Positions 18,252 to 25,759 of a stretch of 64,000 bases of DNA are shown one piece after another. Within the stretch, counting starts at the first letter, position 1; every line of letters starts with the position of its first letter. The position numbers and the translations under genes were made by a program. The stretch is from contig NZ_JACHHN010000008.1 in the NCBI RefSeq assembly GCF_014202765.1, positions 62,001 through 126,000 on the forward strand, read 5' to 3'. This stretch comes from Silvimonas terrae. GTDB lineage: Bacteria; Pseudomonadota; Gammaproteobacteria; Burkholderiales; Chitinibacteraceae. The notes under the pieces were generated by a model. That model was not told the DNA's origin and searched no databases. It saw only the letters and a list, made by a program, of their open reading frames with translations.

Positions 18252-18431
18252 TGGTTGCAACCGCGCGCAACCCGATGCTTGTCCCAGAAGTATTTTCTCG
18301 TAAGTCATGATTTGCAGTTCATTCTTGCCGCTTTTCTGATTCATCCAGTGTTTCCTTGCGTGATTATTCCGGCTTCCTGACGGTTTTTTGCCAGCATAGG
18401 ATCGGCCGATCCATATGCGTGCGAGGAAATC

Positions 18432-19106
18432 ATGGCCGTTCAGGCGTATCACCTCTCCCTGCCGGGGCTCAAATCAGAGCAAGGCAATGCAATCCAGGTT
18501 TCTGTCCACTCCCTCAGCATTGAAGAAACCCTGGGGCAGCCTTATCAACTGACGCTGACCGTCACCACGCCGTCCTCGCTGGACATGCTGCAGGTGCTGG
18601 ACCGCTCCGCCGTGTTTACCGTCTGCCCGGTCGATGAGGCCGCTCTGGCAGATGGCCTGTCGCTGACCGAAGCCACTGGCCAACCCGTGCGCACCTGGGC
18701 CGGGGTAATCCGCAGCGCCACCCGTGTGAGTTTCAGCGCTGATGAAACCCTCTACGAACTGATCATGGCCCCGCGCCTGGCCAGATTGGCCGAAGTGAGC
18801 GATACCCGCCTGTACCAGAACCTGGATGTCCCCGGCCTGATCGACAAGGTCCTGCGTGAAGACATCGGTTTTACCGGTCAGGACTTCCAGATCAAAACCA
18901 CCCGCGCTTACCCGGTGTTTGAGCATGCCATGCGCTGGAAAGAATCCGGGCTGGATTTCCTCAAGCGCCAGGCAGAGAGCTGTGGCCTGTTTTACTACTT
19001 CATCCAGCAAGACGACCGGGAAGTGGTTGTCTTTGCGGATGCTCAGCCTGTGGACCTGCAAAGAGCCGGTATGGCCCCAAGCCATTGCAGACGCCTGCCT
19101 GGTTGA
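18432..19106 (+). pseudogene. vgrG: vgrG, truncated after the N-terminal gp27-like domain
   Basis: VgrG forms the spike of the type VI secretion tube. Residues 1-205 match the start of a VgrG (GNAIQVSVHSLSIEETLGQPY, and the gp27/Phage_GPD core with ESGLDFLKRQAESCGLFYYF). A full VgrG has 600-900 residues with OB-fold and beta-spike needle. Here the frame breaks up around base 19060 and stops at 19106 after a nonsense tail, so needle and effector-loading parts are gone. A good ribosome site (GAGGAA) and start remain. It probably cannot make a working spike; best read as an internal deletion remnant. Confidence 0.85.
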
Positions 19107-19299
19107 TCCAGATGATGCATTTGCCCGCCCCCTGCCCGCAGAACCGGTCGGCTTGGCCTATGGCGTAGAACGCCACAAGCGGGACTGGGGCTGGATCAGC
19201 AGTGCCCGGCAATACGCCCCGGACAAACTCGCCCAATGGCAACCGCTCTACCAGCCGGTGGAAGATGCCGCACAAAAACGGTATCCGACCGATATGTGA
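19053..19299 (+). pseudogene. C-terminal tail of an unidentified gene joined to the vgrG remnant
   Basis: In the frame one base ahead of vgrG, about 78 residues (from KEPVWPQAIADACLV to AAQKRYPTDM, stop at 19299) look like genuine protein: normal composition, tryptophan-rich, and GC-biased third positions like neighbouring genes. No start codon or ribosome site precedes it, so it is the end of a gene whose front was lost in the same event that cut vgrG. By position it would be a VgrG-linked effector or accessory protein, but I do not recognise the family. Confidence 0.6.
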
Positions 19300-19362
19300 G
19301 TTCCGGGACGTTATTCGGGGGTCCGGACTACGCAATAGCCAATAAATAACCAGGGGAAATGA

Positions 19363-20736
19363 ATGTCGAACATTACAAATGCGGCACTCGAAGTGCAGAA
19401 TCCGCAAGAGATTATCGATCAAGCCATCAGCCGGGCCGGTGCTGTTGCCATGCTGGCCGCTTTTGGCTTTGTAACGGTAGAGAAATATGAGGAAGCAAGT
19501 GCCTTTCTGAAGACTCACCCGGAAGTAACATTTGACAATGATGATTTTGCAGCGACACTGCGCTGGCTTGAAGATTATCAATATACAGACGCAGCAACAG
19601 TGGCACAGCATAAGCAACAGTTACTTGACCTGTGCAATGAGCCTACGCATGAGCATGTCATGTTTCTTAATGTGTATCGGTCTATTGATCCTGAATTGTT
19701 CGATCAGAAACTCAAAGAAATACACTGCCTGGATATTGTCAATACTTTTGAAGTCGCGGGTTTTTTTGAATCCGACATCAAAGAAAATATTCTGCATAAA
19801 CTGAAAAATGATGATTTCTCCTGTTTACGAAACACAGAGGAGCGTTGTCATTATTTTCTGGAATGGCTAATAGAAAACCAGTATACGTCAGTAGAAAAGA
19901 AAGAGAGAATTATTGCTGAACTCCTCAAAAAGCAACCCCAGGACGTTGAGCAGTTTGAAGTATATATTTCAATGCTGGTCAATATGCGGAGCATAGACCG
20001 GGAGCGTTGTAATTTCCGGATTCAGACATTACTGGCGCAAAGGTATTTACACTTGTTGGTGGACAACAATATTTTGCATCAAGCACTTGATGATGCATCA
20101 TTTTCTCGTCTCGTTGAAAATGGTCCACGTCTTTTGCCCGCAGATCTTTCGGTAAATATTATGGGGCGCTTGTCTGGTAATACAGATCTTCAGCCCTTGC
20201 TTGCCTGGTTGTTTGCCGAAGGCATGGCGGAACCAGTGCAAGTTGAGGACGCCATTTGTAAATTACTTGAAAACGACGAAGCTCCTATTGAAGTTTTAAT
20301 GGAATTAAAAAGTCTGGATAGGAAAAAATTTGAAACGCGCATTAAATATGTTGCAATAAGAGGATTGTTGTTATTGTTGAATGTTTATAAATACATCCCA
20401 GATGAAAACCTGGATACAGCGATTTTAGCAATGGAAAGATACGGGCCAACCCTGGAATTTGGTGATGTAGATATAAGCGAGATCATTGATTGGCTGTTAA
20501 ATGAAAATCTGACAACGAGCGCCCATATTGAATATGCAACAAATATTTTACTGAAAGATGACAAAACTAACTCTAATCAGCAAATTTTGCTTTTGTCACA
20601 ACTTAAATCTATAAATCCTGCTTTATTTGAATCCAGAATAACGGAGCTTCAAAAAAAGGAAATAAAAAAGCTAAATTTGAAATTGGCGTTACAAATTTTA
20701 GTTGTGGTTTTGTTTGCACTCTGGCTTTTCTTCTGA
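19363..20736 (+). CDS. AT-rich protein of four internal repeats with C-terminal membrane anchor, unknown function
   Basis: 457 residues, no family recognised. The sequence is built of four units of roughly 100-110 residues. Each unit has a helix with Trp-Leu (RWLEDYQYT at 68, EWLIENQYT at 168, AWLFAEGM at 282, DWLLNENLT at 377), and about 40 residues later a SID-like segment (RSIDPELF at 106, RSIDRERC at 209, KSLDRKKF at 316, KSINPALF at 415). This suggests an all-helical solenoid. The last 19 residues are a hydrophobic helix (tail anchor). There is no signal peptide. Codons are far AT-richer than in neighbours, a sign of transfer. Start supported by AGGGGA. Its place between vgrG and PAAR suggests a type VI effector, adaptor or immunity protein. 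Confidence 0.75.
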   Translation: MSNITNAALEVQNPQEIIDQAISRAGAVAMLAAFGFVTVEKYEEASAFLKTHPEVTFDNDDFAATLRWLEDYQYTDAATVAQHKQQLLDLCNEPTHEHVMFLNVYRSIDPELFDQKLKEIHCLDIVNTFEVAGFFESDIKENILHKLKNDDFSCLRNTEERCHYFLEWLIENQYTSVEKKERIIAELLKKQPQDVEQFEVYISMLVNMRSIDRERCNFRIQTLLAQRYLHLLVDNNILHQALDDASFSRLVENGPRLLPADLSVNIMGRLSGNTDLQPLLAWLFAEGMAEPVQVEDAICKLLENDEAPIEVLMELKSLDRKKFETRIKYVAIRGLLLLLNVYKYIPDENLDTAILAMERYGPTLEFGDVDISEIIDWLLNENLTTSAHIEYATNILLKDDKTNSNQQILLLSQLKSINPALFESRITELQKKEIKKLNLKLALQILVVVLFALWLFF

Positions 20737-20792
20737 AAGCGTATGGCAAGCAGATTCTCTATGAACGAATATAAATTTGGGGTGCAGCAAAG

Positions 20793-21050
20793 ATGCCTTC
20801 TCTTGTGTATGTTGGCGATAAAACCAGCCATGGCGGCGTAGTGCTCAGTGGTTCTGCCCGTGTCACCAAAGATGGCCGTGGTGCGGCCCGTAAAACCGAC
20901 CGGGTGTCGTGCCCCAAGTGCGGTGAGAACATGATTGTGCAGGGCGACGACAAGATTCGCGACGGGGATCTGCCGCTGGCGTTTCATGGTTACAAAACCG
21001 CCTGTGGTGCTACGCTGATTGCATCAACCAGCAATACAGGGTCGGCGTAA
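20793..21050 (+). CDS. PAAR-domain protein (type VI secretion tip)
   Basis: 85 residues, the length of a stand-alone PAAR protein. It forms the sharp metal-binding cone on top of VgrG and can carry effectors. The opening GDKTSHGGVVLSGS and the glycine-rich turns with Cys and His residues (VSCPKCGENM, FHGYKTACGATL) match PAAR proteins of the DUF4150/PAAR type. No effector domain is fused. The next gene begins 3 bases after the stop, indicating one transcript. Confidence 0.88.
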   Translation: MPSLVYVGDKTSHGGVVLSGSARVTKDGRGAARKTDRVSCPKCGENMIVQGDDKIRDGDLPLAFHGYKTACGATLIASTSNTGSA

Positions 21051-21053
21051 ATC

Positions 21054-21809
21054 ATGCCTTTTGATCTGGACCAGATTAGCCCGGTAGAAGCGGTGCCCCC
21101 TATCCGGATTGGCTGGGGCAAGTGGCTGTTGTTGCTGGTGTTGATGATGGGGGCAGGGGCAGCGGCGCTACTATTGGGTGCCCCCAAGCTGTTACCTACC
21201 GCGCCCGTGTTGCTGTGGCTGGCCATTGTGGGCGTGCCTGCGCTGCTCTGGCTCATATTGTTGTGCTTTGCCATCGGTCATCAGCAGTCACTGCAGACGG
21301 ACGTCAAAGACGCCAATCTGCAACGCCAGATTGAAATGGCCAATACCGTTAACGTGGCGGGGATACCGCTGGCGGTACTGGCTGCCGCCTACCGGGTTGA
21401 TGCTGCAGCAGTAAAGATTTCCAGCGGAACCATAGCGGCTCGGCAGATTCGGCGCATGCCTCAATTGCGCTACAGCAAAGATGCCCAAACCGTGGATGCA
21501 CGCTGGCTGGAGGCGCCCGGCAGGGTCTGGTTGCCGGAGATGCCGGAGCAAGCCCGCCATGAAGCCGTGCTGGCTTGGGTGCTCCAGGATTTGTTCAGGC
21601 AGCTTCAACCTGCACTGGCTGCATTGCCGGAAGGAACACCGGTCCAGATCCATCTGCACGCCGACACGCGGGTTTCTGATGAATCTGTGCAGACCTTGTG
21701 GCAGGAGGCTGGCGCTGAATATGCCCGCCATCTGCATCTGGCTTTGCCCGTGGTGTCTGCTGAGTTGCCAGACCTGGCCGCTGTGGAGCGCTGGCTGTGG
21801 AGTCCGTAG
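21054..21809 (+). CDS. Two-helix membrane protein of the type VI locus (N-terminal part of a split gene?)
   Basis: 251 residues: two transmembrane helices (about 22-44 and 51-74) and a soluble C-terminal region. Not a recognised family. The frame ends at 21809, but a second good frame starts at 21797 and continues the same type of sequence (...ERWLW then VEDPQQVPVMLICAVQLH), so the two probably were, or are in relatives, one protein of about 425 residues broken by a one-base frameshift. Otherwise they are translationally coupled through the 13-base overlap. Located between PAAR and the TssM-like gene. Confidence 0.65.
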   Translation: MPFDLDQISPVEAVPPIRIGWGKWLLLLVLMMGAGAAALLLGAPKLLPTAPVLLWLAIVGVPALLWLILLCFAIGHQQSLQTDVKDANLQRQIEMANTVNVAGIPLAVLAAAYRVDAAAVKISSGTIAARQIRRMPQLRYSKDAQTVDARWLEAPGRVWLPEMPEQARHEAVLAWVLQDLFRQLQPALAALPEGTPVQIHLHADTRVSDESVQTLWQEAGAEYARHLHLALPVVSAELPDLAAVERWLWSP

Positions 21810-22324
21810 AAGACCCGCAGCAGGTGCCGGTCATGCTGATCTGTGCGGTCCAGTTGCACCGCCTTCTGAATGAGTTGCCCCCCGAGGGCAGTGCAGAAGC
21901 CGCAGTGATGCTACTGCTGGCCGGGACTACAGCCGTGCAACGCTTTGGTTTGCGCCCCCTTGGCGCACTGCACCGGCCTGAGCGCCGTTCAACCGACCGG
22001 ATACCGCATGGGTTACGGCATGCCCTGAGCTGGAGTGCGTTGACTGGCGAAACCATCGTGGACCAGTGGCTCACTGGCGGTGCGGAGTCTGCGGCGCAGC
22101 AAGCGCTATTGAGTGCTTACGAAGATGACCCGGTTGGTGTGGCTAAAACGCCAGAGTTGGCCGGTCAGCATGACCTGGATCGGGCGATCGGCAACACCGG
22201 GCTGGCCAGTGAGTGGTTGACGGTGGCCTTGGCTGCCGAACATCTGGCAGTCACGGGCACCCCTCAACTGATTTCCCCCGAGACCAAGGGCCAGCTCACG
22301 CTGGCGGTGCTCACCCCTTTTTGA
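21797..22324 (+). CDS. Continuation of the preceding type VI locus protein (frameshifted or coupled)
   Basis: 175 residues without membrane segments, beginning with ATG inside the end of the previous gene and ending 27 bases before the TssM-like gene. The sequence (LICAVQLHRLLNELPPEGSAEAAVMLLLAG...) is of normal coding quality. No ribosome site of note precedes the ATG, which speaks for a frameshift in one ancestral gene rather than a separate one. Function unknown. Confidence 0.55.
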   Translation: MESVEDPQQVPVMLICAVQLHRLLNELPPEGSAEAAVMLLLAGTTAVQRFGLRPLGALHRPERRSTDRIPHGLRHALSWSALTGETIVDQWLTGGAESAAQQALLSAYEDDPVGVAKTPELAGQHDLDRAIGNTGLASEWLTVALAAEHLAVTGTPQLISPETKGQLTLAVLTPF

Positions 22325-22351: not shown

Positions 22352-25300
22352 ATGCTTACAAAACTGAACTTCAAATATCTCGGCCTGGCGTTGTTACTGG
22401 TGGGGCTGGTCGGGGCAATTTATATTTTTGGCAGCTATATCGGGCTGGATACGCCCGACCAGAAGAAAAGTGCAGCAGCTATCCTGGTCGCTGGGGTAAC
22501 GGTGGTCATGATGTGTCTGCAGGCGGGACGGTTTTACTCGCGCCGTACGCAGGCGATCAGGGCTACGGGTACAGCCAAAGTCGGTGACAAGGAAACAGAA
22601 CGGAAACAGGCAGAAGCAGAAAAAGCACGCCAGGCCTGGCACACCCAACTGCACCAATACCTCTCCACCCAATACAGCTGGCTGGAACGCCGCCGTAAAA
22701 CCTGGTTGTTCGTCCTGGGCGATCAGCGCCTGGTGCGCAACCAGTTCCCGTACCTGATCGAACAGCAGTGGCTGGATACACCGCAGGCCGTGCTGGTCTG
22801 GGCGGGTGTGGGTTCCGTCGCGCCGAAGGGCGGTTGGAGCCGGTTACGGGGTTGGTGGCGGCGGCCGGCGGCCGGCATTGTGCTGGTGGCCGATGGCATC
22901 ACAGCCGCTGGGGATGAACCGGCACAACTGGCGCAGGCTTGCGGGTTCGCCTTGCCGGTGCAGCTCTTGCTGGCCCCGCCCTTGCCGGGTCACCGGGCGG
23001 AGGAGGCCGCGCCGGTGGTGTTGGCCTCCGGATCGGGCCTGCGGGGCGGGGTTGTGCCGGGCTTGTTGCAACGCCTGGTGAGGCCGCTGGCACAGTCTGG
23101 TATTGCCGCCGTGTTGCAAGCACGGGAGGCCTCGTTTGATGCGCGGTTGTCCCGTTGGTTAGAGGCGGAACACACCCCGCTGGGCCGCTGGTTTACGCGG
23201 ATGACGGACCAGTTGCACCGCCGGCAGCGGCTGCACGGGGTGTGGTTTGCACCGACGCGTGCGGCGGTGTCGTCGCCAAGCCAGGAGGGTGGGGCGGAAC
23301 TGGCCGATGATCCGGCCGGCTACCGGGCGCGCGAAGCCGGCCGGGCGGTGGTGTTGCCGCCGTCCTGGCTGGGCCTGTTTGGTCGCGTGCGCCAACCGCG
23401 CGTCCGCTTCTCCAGACTGGATATATTCTGGTTCATGCTGACTGGCTGTGCGCTGGCGGTCATGGTGTGGTTGTTGATGGTATGGCAAGCCAACCGCATC
23501 CTGGTTCAGCAAGTGCGAACAGATGTCACAGCCCTGCACAATGCCAGAATCCTTGCAGAGGGCCTGCCTGCGCTGGTGGTGCTGCAAAACGACATGACCT
23601 TGCTGGAAAGCCGCATTGCCCGTTCATCGTGGTGGTCGCAGTTGGGCTTGCAGCATGATGCCGCCTTGTTGAATACCCTGTGGCAACCCTATGGTCTTGC
23701 TGCCAACAAGTGGCTGATGCAGCCGGTGCAATTCCAGCTGGCCCGGCAATTGAAAGCCCTGGACGCGGTGCCGCTGGATGGGGCTGCAGATCCGGACTCT
23801 GGCACATCTGGCGCAGATGCGGTGGGCCAGGCAGGGTACGACACCCTCAAAACCTGGCTGATGCTGGTGCAACCTGGCCATGCGGACAGTGGCTTCCTGA
23901 GTCCCCGTCTGGCCGGGGTCGGCAAGGTGGTCTGGCCGGCCCAGCCGGGAGACCGTATCGAGCAAATCGCCGCCTTCTACGCCAAACACCTGGCCGCCCA
24001 CCCGCAGTGGCGACTGGCAGGAGACGAGTCCCTGTTGTTCTCGGCAAGACAAACCCTGTCCGGGCTGATCGACGTCAAACAGGCCGAAGACACGCTTTAC
24101 CACCAGTTGCTGGACGAAACCAAAGCCCGTTATCCGGACCCGACCATGAGCGCCTTGTTGGGTGGCCGGGATTCGCGCGGCCTGTGGTCCGTACAGGGAC
24201 GCCTTCCTGGCACCTTCACCCGCCAGGCGTATGAAGGCTATGTCAAAGACAATATCGAGCGATTGTCAAAACAGACCGCCACATCGGGTGATTGGGTGCT
24301 GGGTCAGCAAACTGCGCGCACTGAAGAAAAACCGGAGGACATTGCTGCTGCACTGAACCGGCGTTACTTTGCCGACTTCGGTCATGCCTGGCAGGCCTTC
24401 CTCAATCGTATCGTCTGGGTGCCTGCCAGTAACCTCTCCGGCAACGCGGAACAACTGCGTGTCTATGCTGATGCCCAACAGTCCCCGCTGGCCGGTCTGA
24501 TGAAAACCATTGCCTGGCAAGCGCAGACCGGTGCACAGGCGCATAGCCTGGCTGATTCACTGGTCGACAAAGCGCGGAGTGTGTTCAAGGGCAAGGAAGA
24601 TAACCCGGCCCAGCCCCCCGCCCAGACCACGCCCAAAGACAGTGTGCCACTGGCAGACGCCTTTGGTCCGCTCTTGCGTCTGGTCAGTGAAGGCAATGGC
24701 ACTCAGGCCACCGACAACACCTTGAGTCTGCAACGCTATCTGGATCGCGTGAGCGCCACCCGCCTCAAGCTGGACCAGGTCAGTGCGGCCGCTGATCCGG
24801 ACGCATTTGCCCGGCAACTGGCGCAGAACCTGTTTCAGGGCCGTGCCAGTGATCTGGTGGACGCGCGGGATTACGCCCAACTGGTTGCCGCCAGCCTTGG
24901 CAGTGGTTACGCCGGTATGGGCCAGAACCTGTTCCTGGAACCGCTCGACCAGGGCTGGCGTACCCTTATCCGGCCGGCGGCGGCCAGCCTTGACTCGCTC
25001 TGGCAAACCAGCATTGTCCTCCCGTTCAACAGCACTTTCTCTGGTCGCTATCCCTTTAACGATAGTGATGCCGATGCCAGCCTGGCGGACCTGGCCCGGT
25101 TCCTTGGACCGCAAGGCAATGTCGCCCAGTTCGCGAGCACGCAGCTGGCCGGCATTCTGGAAAAGCAGGGCGACCAATGGGTGCCCAACCCGCTCTACGC
25201 CCAGGCCATGCGCTTTGATCCAGAGTTTCTCAATGCACTGAACAAGCTCACCTGGCTTTCCGGCCAGCTTTATGCGGAGGGAGACCTCAAGACCCGTTTC

Positions 25301-25759
25301 AGCCTCATGGCCCTGGGCGACCCGCAAGTCACGGACAGCCAGCTCAATATCGATGGCCAGATGCTCCATTACTTTAACCAGAAACCAAAGTGGCAAGACG
25401 TGACCTGGCCGGGCAACCCGCTCACCCAGCGCGGTCTGCTCACGTGGGATGCGTTGGCCACCGGTCTCAGAAAACAGAATGACTTTGCCGGCCCATGGGG
25501 GTTTATCCGACTGCTGGCCAAGGCAAAAACCGAACAGATCAACAAGAGTGACTGGCGCATCAACTGGGCCCTGGACGACGGCGTGACCTTGCATTACCTG
25601 CTACGCACGCAATCAGGCAGCGGCCCGCTGGCGCTGTTGCAACTGGATCATTTCAAGCTGCCACAGCGGTTGTTTGGGGCCAGCAATACCAAGCCGGTGG
25701 CGACGCGGGCCAGTGCAGTATCAGGTAGCTCTGGGGCGCATGCTGATCCAGCGAGCTGA
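22352..25759 (+). CDS. TssM/IcmF-related (ImcF) membrane protein, degenerate P-loop
   Basis: 1135 residues, similar in length to TssM, the inner-membrane scaffold of type VI secretion. Two N-terminal helices (about 9-30 and 42-58), a third near 355-380, then a long periplasmic region with the ImcF-related core. In TssM a Walker A site usually follows the second helix; here the equivalent segment (KTWLFVLGDQRLVRNQF, about 115-131) has no GxxGxGK, so nucleotide binding is unlikely. No other structural tss genes (tssB, C, F, G, K, L) are in the window, so this is a satellite paralogue that would modify or anchor a machine encoded elsewhere. Confidence 0.8.
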   Translation: MLTKLNFKYLGLALLLVGLVGAIYIFGSYIGLDTPDQKKSAAAILVAGVTVVMMCLQAGRFYSRRTQAIRATGTAKVGDKETERKQAEAEKARQAWHTQLHQYLSTQYSWLERRRKTWLFVLGDQRLVRNQFPYLIEQQWLDTPQAVLVWAGVGSVAPKGGWSRLRGWWRRPAAGIVLVADGITAAGDEPAQLAQACGFALPVQLLLAPPLPGHRAEEAAPVVLASGSGLRGGVVPGLLQRLVRPLAQSGIAAVLQAREASFDARLSRWLEAEHTPLGRWFTRMTDQLHRRQRLHGVWFAPTRAAVSSPSQEGGAELADDPAGYRAREAGRAVVLPPSWLGLFGRVRQPRVRFSRLDIFWFMLTGCALAVMVWLLMVWQANRILVQQVRTDVTALHNARILAEGLPALVVLQNDMTLLESRIARSSWWSQLGLQHDAALLNTLWQPYGLAANKWLMQPVQFQLARQLKALDAVPLDGAADPDSGTSGADAVGQAGYDTLKTWLMLVQPGHADSGFLSPRLAGVGKVVWPAQPGDRIEQIAAFYAKHLAAHPQWRLAGDESLLFSARQTLSGLIDVKQAEDTLYHQLLDETKARYPDPTMSALLGGRDSRGLWSVQGRLPGTFTRQAYEGYVKDNIERLSKQTATSGDWVLGQQTARTEEKPEDIAAALNRRYFADFGHAWQAFLNRIVWVPASNLSGNAEQLRVYADAQQSPLAGLMKTIAWQAQTGAQAHSLADSLVDKARSVFKGKEDNPAQPPAQTTPKDSVPLADAFGPLLRLVSEGNGTQATDNTLSLQRYLDRVSATRLKLDQVSAAADPDAFARQLAQNLFQGRASDLVDARDYAQLVAASLGSGYAGMGQNLFLEPLDQGWRTLIRPAAASLDSLWQTSIVLPFNSTFSGRYPFNDSDADASLADLARFLGPQGNVAQFASTQLAGILEKQGDQWVPNPLYAQAMRFDPEFLNALNKLTWLSGQLYAEGDLKTRFSLMALGDPQVTDSQLNIDGQMLHYFNQKPKWQDVTWPGNPLTQRGLLTWDALATGLRKQNDFAGPWGFIRLLAKAKTEQINKSDWRINWALDDGVTLHYLLRTQSGSGPLALLQLDHFKLPQRLFGASNTKPVATRASAVSGSSGAHADPAS

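Follow-up and report, generated by a model that had tools for sequence, protein, structure and literature searches.

Membrane depolarisation by BTH_I2691/VasX effectors is described in PMC12909789, where the Tke5 cassette of Pseudomonas putida has the gene order vgrG3-tap3-tke5-tki5-PAAR. In Stenotrophomonas rhizophila, the DUF6708 (PF20455) protein Tsi3a is labelled as the immunity protein of a MIX/BTH_I2691 effector in an excerpt of PMC13340143, which also mentions a string of homologous immunity genes behind a DUF6708 immunity gene. Some specific, non-cognate protection from ColA (BTH_I2691) is ascribed, in the excerpted text of PMC8926400, to Arc2 of P. aeruginosa, a cluster of seven genes (arc2A-G). 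How cells survive pore-forming effectors of type VI secretion systems (T6SS) beyond a single cognate immunity protein is an open question.

The gene described here resembles, as a class, the known T6SS accessory or immunity proteins. It occupies the same part of a cassette as the DUF6708 proteins, which occur in tandem, but its product does not match PF20455 and has a different layout. By the published description, it is comparable to Tki5, the immunity protein of the pore-former Tke5, in cassette gene order and in proposed job, except that it is an additional gene, set between an immunity remnant and a PAAR gene. Arc2, likened in the same way, serves as a working analogy of protection from the same effector class by a non-cognate factor, although it is described as a seven-gene cluster. 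The Kdp potassium system is shared as a genomic context with 5 of the 25 family members, whereas the window protein itself fits none of the Kdp family models in Pfam or NCBIfam.

Window locus and its deletion scar

The window, i.e., the whole 64,000-nucleotide stretch of Silvimonas terrae DNA that was analysed, contains the following features.

18432..19050, forward strand: 5' end of vgrG, about 206 codons, cut off (Phage_GPD, E-value 1.4e-31, ORF residues 31-205, profile positions 1-159 of 305)
19041..19299, forward strand: 3' end of a DUF6708 gene, out of frame with the vgrG piece at the junction; deletion scar (blastn, 74-77% to the 3' ends of three L033 genes)
19363..20736, forward strand: predicted four-unit, tail-anchored membrane protein of 457 aa (ATG to stop; profile and hydropathy evidence)
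19429..19725, forward strand: unit R1, residues ~23-121 (40.1 bits, profile from other genera)
19723..20037, forward strand: unit R2, residues ~122-225 (21.0 bits, same profile)
20032..20358, forward strand: unit R3, the least conserved, residues ~226-331 (9.3 bits, same profile)
20353..20655, forward strand: unit R4, residues ~332-431 (38.7 bits, same profile)
20677..20733, forward strand: predicted tail-anchor helix, residues 439-457 (hydropathy; aligns with the helix of relatives in alignment A6)
20793..21050, forward strand: PAAR tip protein (Pfam PAAR_motif, E-value 6.9e-25)
21054..22324, forward strand: two overlapping ORFs (21054-21809 and 21797-22324), corresponding to one frame of 422-442 aa in genomes G001 and G042
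22352..25759, forward strand: tssM (IcmF) of the type VI system (IcmF-related, E-value 1.5e-48, with IcmF_helical and IcmF_C; TIGR03348, 7.4e-81, under its cut-off)

The T6SS context and the PAAR neighbour, both proposed in the sequence-only reading, are borne out by the PAAR_motif match and by tssM downstream. The "vgrG remnant" of that reading stands in part: vgrG sequence extends to about position 19050 (TIGR03361, 6e-28, below its cut-off, and taken as a partial match in the vgrG counting), but the following stretch, 19041-19299, matches a DUF6708 3' end, and the whole is a junction of two genes, vgrG 5' and DUF6708 3', left as a deletion scar. Positions 19041-19293 share 74-77% DNA identity with the 3' ends of three DUF6708-type genes at locus L033 of G001; the protein tail encoded at 19041-19299 resembles the tails of the L033 proteins, and PF20455 was matched in the one of these three genes that was scanned.

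The gene order at L033 is vgrG-DUF4123-VasX_N effector-three DUF6708-type genes-PAAR-422-aa gene-tssM (with vgrG, DUF4123, PAAR and tssM named there from sequence likeness and order), and the PAAR-to-tssM part is common to L033 and the window. Given the junction and this order, the greater part of vgrG and of the DUF6708 gene was lost by deletion; by comparison with G001, an adaptor gene and an effector gene between the scar ends may also have gone. VasX_N had no match in the window's own genome, in a search that found it in 12 of 43 genomes (positive control). The unit gene itself is absent from this locus of G001, the closest syntenic cassette.

Downstream of PAAR, the gene at 21054..22324 looks split by a frame change, since its two ORFs form one frame in G001 and G042. 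A second copy of this gene type is present in the window's own genome (C4, L035 9900-11192; 47% identical over residues 74-250), and none of the genes around that copy was recognised by eye as T6SS.

Repeat units and predicted membrane topology

An AGGGGA stretch lies shortly before the ATG of the 19363-20736 ORF, and the ORF encodes four units of about 100 residues, then a C-terminal hydrophobic helix. Each unit contains a WL helix (RWLEDYQYT, EWLIENQYT, AWLFAEGMA and DWLLNENLT in R1-R4) and a SID-like segment (SIDPELF, SIDRERC, SLDRKKF and SINPALF, respectively), and the units are predicted from their pattern to be helical. Ten single-unit sequences from the genera Burkholderia, Cupriavidus, Paraburkholderia and Caballeronia, and none from the window, went into the independent profile. 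The four-unit layout claimed earlier is confirmed by this profile, which finds all four units, while in 2000 shuffles of residues 1-436 the top stretch scored 8.7 bits and none reached the weakest unit. Because of these values (9.3 vs 8.7 bits), R3 barely exceeds the shuffles, and its match starts only at profile position 41; with another profile, one that includes R3 itself, it scores 78 bits. In pairwise alignment against 500 shuffles, five of the six unit pairs gave p <= 0.006, the exception being R2-R4 (p 0.092). The AT-rich composition relative to the neighbours also held: the GC content of the gene is 39.5% (GC3, 38.6%) vs 57-62% in the five neighbour genes measured. A promoter scan of 18300-21100 gave 5 sites vs 4.0 +- 2.1 in shuffles.

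The tail helix (residues 439-457) has a mean hydropathy of 2.49, is preceded by ten residues with a net charge of +3, and is followed by no further residues. Positively charged flanks of membrane helices lie on the cytosolic side (the positive-inside rule), and this rule, together with the charge bias at the helix, would place the repeat units in the cytosol. The window protein and the Burkholderia-type members show the bias clearly; it is slight or absent in G029, in G031 and, for the inner side, in G895. A helix with a hydropathy of at least 1.5 was found in 10 of the 11 full relatives measured, G851 being the exception. A second hydrophobic stretch (residues 21-39, hydropathy 1.71) reads by alignment as the first helix of R1 rather than as a signal peptide. 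With a single C-terminal helix, no signal peptide and no residues after the helix, hydropathy and alignment agree with the tail-anchored layout and the cytosol-facing repeats suggested previously; the protein is probably tail-anchored, with its repeats in the cytosol.

Relatives of the window protein

The family searched for here appears to be undescribed, being absent from the Pfam, NCBIfam, PHROGs and PADLOC libraries. All Pfam matches of the window protein had E-values of 0.013 or worse, below their cut-offs, and its NCBIfam matches (0.024 or worse) were far below theirs; PHROGs and PADLOC gave no match, and PHROGs searched with the relatives gave one (E-value 0.054). No delivery or toxin domain was found in the window protein with Pfam and NCBIfam. 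The best Pfam candidate, PemK-like, reached 16.1 bits vs a cut-off of 23.1 and covered the end of R4 and the start of the helix. For the 14 members of alignment A5, three NCBIfam models (best E-value 0.00074) and two Pfam models (best E-value 0.045) matched one member each, and in PDB the window protein had one match (0.42) and A5 six (0.049-0.44, DEP-domain proteins first); all of these were taken as chance. The plasmid collection, phage collection and viral contigs contained no match, with which a mobile origin remains compatible. The clear housekeeping-family match that would have refuted the earlier reading was not found in the four libraries, and no PDB sequence match is convincing. The further claim, that no described family has this layout, applies to the libraries searched, although one- and three-unit relatives do exist.

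A search for homologues and their gene neighbourhoods, as proposed in the sequence-only reading, revealed 24 relatives (25 members with the window protein), among them some with T6SS and some with kdp neighbours. The family is rare. With the window protein as a query, 4 of 43 genomes of its bacterial family matched, its own included, and none of three congeners. Order-wide searches gave 2 of 399 and 2 of 389 genomes and added G319, in whose family members were found in 11 of the 299 genomes searched; the class and phylum searches gave 1 of 369 and 3 of 388 genomes, respectively (own genome counted where searched). A scan of named genomes with the window protein alone returned no relative, and with alignment A4 it returned 14 loci, from the genera Burkholderia, Cupriavidus, Paraburkholderia and Caballeronia, five of which (L084, L085, L086, L093 and L095) were dropped as apparent repeats of G1070, G969, G801, G1003 and G946. 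A weak match (E-value 2.9e-4) in G1162 (L103), a distant genome of the phylum, covers profile positions 100-167, i.e., the end of a unit and the membrane helix.

Relatives in the window's bacterial family consist of three units, the helix and a four-cysteine outer domain, while those in Burkholderia and its kin mostly have one unit, the helix and the same outer domain. The three-unit form, with a further domain of ~260 residues after the helix, occurs in G029, in both copies of G030 and in G031. In all four of these relatives the independent profile picks out three units; its scores in G879 (8.4 bits) and G851 (5.8 bits) are both inside the shuffle range, and it finds nothing of note in G895. 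The outer domain is clear in G851, where the unit is weak (16 bits), and in G895, where no unit is found by profile and the copy is placed in the family through this domain. A common origin of the three- and four-unit arrays was neither supported nor contradicted by a tree of 22 units.

In A5, all four cysteines of this domain are conserved without exception (positions 151, 207, 314 and 324 of the first row), which would fit an oxidising periplasm, where the outer domain should lie. The window protein stops at the helix, where the outer domain of the relatives starts, with 56 bases left to PAAR, and at E <= 0.05 the window gene is not among the matches of the outer-domain profile. By these comparisons, the window protein is a family relative that lacks one part, the cysteine domain. 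Among the members found, four units and an absent outer domain occur only in the window copy. The G879 copy is truncated within the outer domain, and the kdp-linked G946 member (L038 9321-10557) is split across two frames, its L094 counterpart being one ORF.

Gene neighbourhoods and candidate roles

Based on the flanks examined, 9 of the 25 members are near T6SS genes, 5 are at kdp and 11 (8 of them in Burkholderia) are near neither. For this classing, a few T6SS and Kdp proteins, each represented by one reference sequence, were searched for by tblastn at 1e-8, and gene calls in the loci came from a simple ORF script; the "neither" class may hide divergent genes, because tblastn missed a DUF6708 gene of G030 that was seen with Pfam. 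Four of the nine T6SS-linked members (the window, by its scar, G030 copy a, G879 and G895) are associated with a VasX/DUF6708 cassette. The three relatives among them follow or lie inside VgrG-DUF4123-VasX-DUF6708 cassettes: the G879 member is collinear and downstream of DUF6708, the G895 member is collinear and has two DUF6708 genes upstream and one downstream, and G030 copy a is convergent, after DUF6708, in a cassette whose DUF4123 match is just under the Pfam cut-off. The effectors of G879, G895, G030 and L033, all four of those scanned, match NF041559 (BTH_I2691) at 242-543 bits (cut-off 150). As for the others, the members in G801, G1065, L083 and L090 are ~1.8 kb from tssF with tssM beyond, and the L091 member is 0.35 kb from tssB, with tssC also nearby; no VasX or DUF6708 match was found at these five loci. 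The window gene adjoins PAAR and is 1.6 kb from tssM.

With uniform placement assumed, loci grouped as independent and observed numbers read off by the authors, and 3 to 18 vgrG genes per genome, vgrG lies within 10 kb of 4 of 16 members (0.57 expected, P 0.002) and of 4 of 9 independent loci (0.31 expected, P 1.3e-4). VasX linkage at 3 of 9 loci has a P of 3e-6, assuming one VasX gene per genome, though some genomes have two. Among the 18 VasX_N loci of the window's bacterial family, a unit gene was present only at that of G030 (in the stretches examined, several of which reach contig ends).

The kdp-linked members belong to two lineages with different layouts: those in G029, G030 (copy b) and G031 start 113-115 bases after kdpE, and those in G946 and L094 are divergent from kdpA. 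Counting independent loci, 2 of 9 are linked to kdp vs 0.018 expected (P 1.4e-4, on the assumptions of uniform placement, a 12-kb target and a single operon in each genome). KdpE of L010 scores 322.4 vs a cut-off of 325, KdpA of L094 was identified by a separate profile check, and the other kdp labels rest on the tblastn classing; the KdpE match near the window is a response regulator ~9 kb away. G030 carries two members (L010 and L008), one at kdpE and one beside the VasX cassette, 88% identical over residues 1-305, which suggests that the gene has moved or been duplicated from one of these contexts to the other.

Because it recurs among cassette genes and at a potassium operon, the protein is most readily interpreted as one that resides in the membrane and serves in protection or stress, and its place beside pore-former immunity genes and potassium-uptake genes suggests that it may help cells withstand leaky membranes. 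Our leading, though still tentative, explanation is that the window protein is a cassette-borne, immunity-type accessory of the inner membrane that limits the ion leak caused by pore-formers and has here been left without its effector. It would belong to an undescribed family of single-pass inner-membrane proteins with one to four cytosolic units of ~100 residues, a membrane helix and, in most relatives, a periplasmic four-cysteine domain. The gene would be the surviving part of a VgrG-DUF4123 adaptor-VasX/BTH_I2691 pore-former-DUF6708 immunity-PAAR cassette, in which deletion took the greater part of vgrG and of the DUF6708 gene and would also have taken the genes between them. The protein would stay in the inner membrane of its producer, where its units would bind a partner at the cytosolic face, and damage from pore-forming effectors (depolarisation, potassium loss) would be limited beside or after the DUF6708 protein. 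The cassette link is one of position; the ion-leak link would join two associations, cassette and kdp, and we infer the membrane side, the protective role, the partner binding and the content between the scar ends. Counting against protection are the 11 of 25 members in neither context, the five core-gene loci with no VasX or DUF6708 match, the finding of a unit gene at just one of the 18 VasX_N loci in the stretches examined, the lack of one at the G001 cassette, the missing outer domain of the window copy, and the silence on potassium of a P. aeruginosa resistance paper that names VasX (PMC12663445).

Of the "effectors, adaptors or immunity proteins" that the sequence-only reading considered, the immunity side is favoured, because a DUF6708 scar precedes the gene and, in three relatives, DUF6708 genes come before it or on both sides of it. 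Injection into a target membrane, which that reading had left open, is not supported: the position before a PAAR gene and the hydrophobic tail would suit an effector, but no delivery or toxin domain was detected, the relatives keep a four-cysteine outer domain and also sit at kdp or away from the T6SS genes tested, and the preceding remnant is of DUF6708 type, not an adaptor gene, all of which makes this role very improbable. Assembly, kdp regulation alone, delivery and decay are each less likely than protection. A single-pass accessory of T6SS assembly, aiding the membrane complex, the baseplate or one particular VgrG/PAAR spike, would explain the tssF/tssM neighbours in G801, G1065, L083 and L090, tssB in L091 and PAAR/tssM at the window; it is unlikely in view of the eight Burkholderia loci and five kdp-linked copies with none of the tested T6SS genes in reach, and of the rarity of the gene (4 of 43 genomes of the bacterial family).

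Somewhat doubtful, too, is a role as regulator or adaptor in stress that concerns potassium or the envelope in general. The gene would then be at home beside kdp, its cytosolic units would bind a sensor kinase or the transporter, and its T6SS linkage would reflect recruitment for the same stress function or hitch-hiking. The two lineages with different layouts, the excess of kdp linkage over expectation and the paired G030 copies argue for it; 20 of the 25 members are away from kdp, and no regulator family matches. The gene could also be a decaying passenger from an AT-rich cassette, with no present role here, as the cassette is broken and the outer domain missing. Its low GC content, the scar directly upstream, the lack of VasX_N in the genome and of any match in the three congeners fit this view, yet 457 open codons from ATG, the AGGGGA before the start and the four preserved units make it improbable.

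A broader idea, to which we assign a low probability, is that the family guards against ion leak in general, whatever the toxin. The cytosolic units would sense, or respond to, a loss of potassium or of membrane potential. Wired both to the kdp operon and to T6SS cassettes whose effector does this damage, the guard would form a second layer behind cognate immunity, and unit number and outer domain would tune it. In a limited look at the open-access literature, no title or abstract opening described a T6SS-Kdp link, and the available part of a paper on resistance of P. aeruginosa to T6SS attack that names VasX (PMC12663445) contains none of the terms "kdp", "potassium" and "membrane potential". 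A family found in both BTH_I2691/VasX cassettes and the kdp operon would link interbacterial defence to potassium and membrane-potential homeostasis in a testable way, and its members offer a set of genes for deletion.

At the G895 locus, the DUF6708 genes are followed by a hydrophobic-looking protein of 199 aa (L040 7447-8043) with no Pfam match, and the T6SS cluster of G1065 includes a Tle1-like gene.
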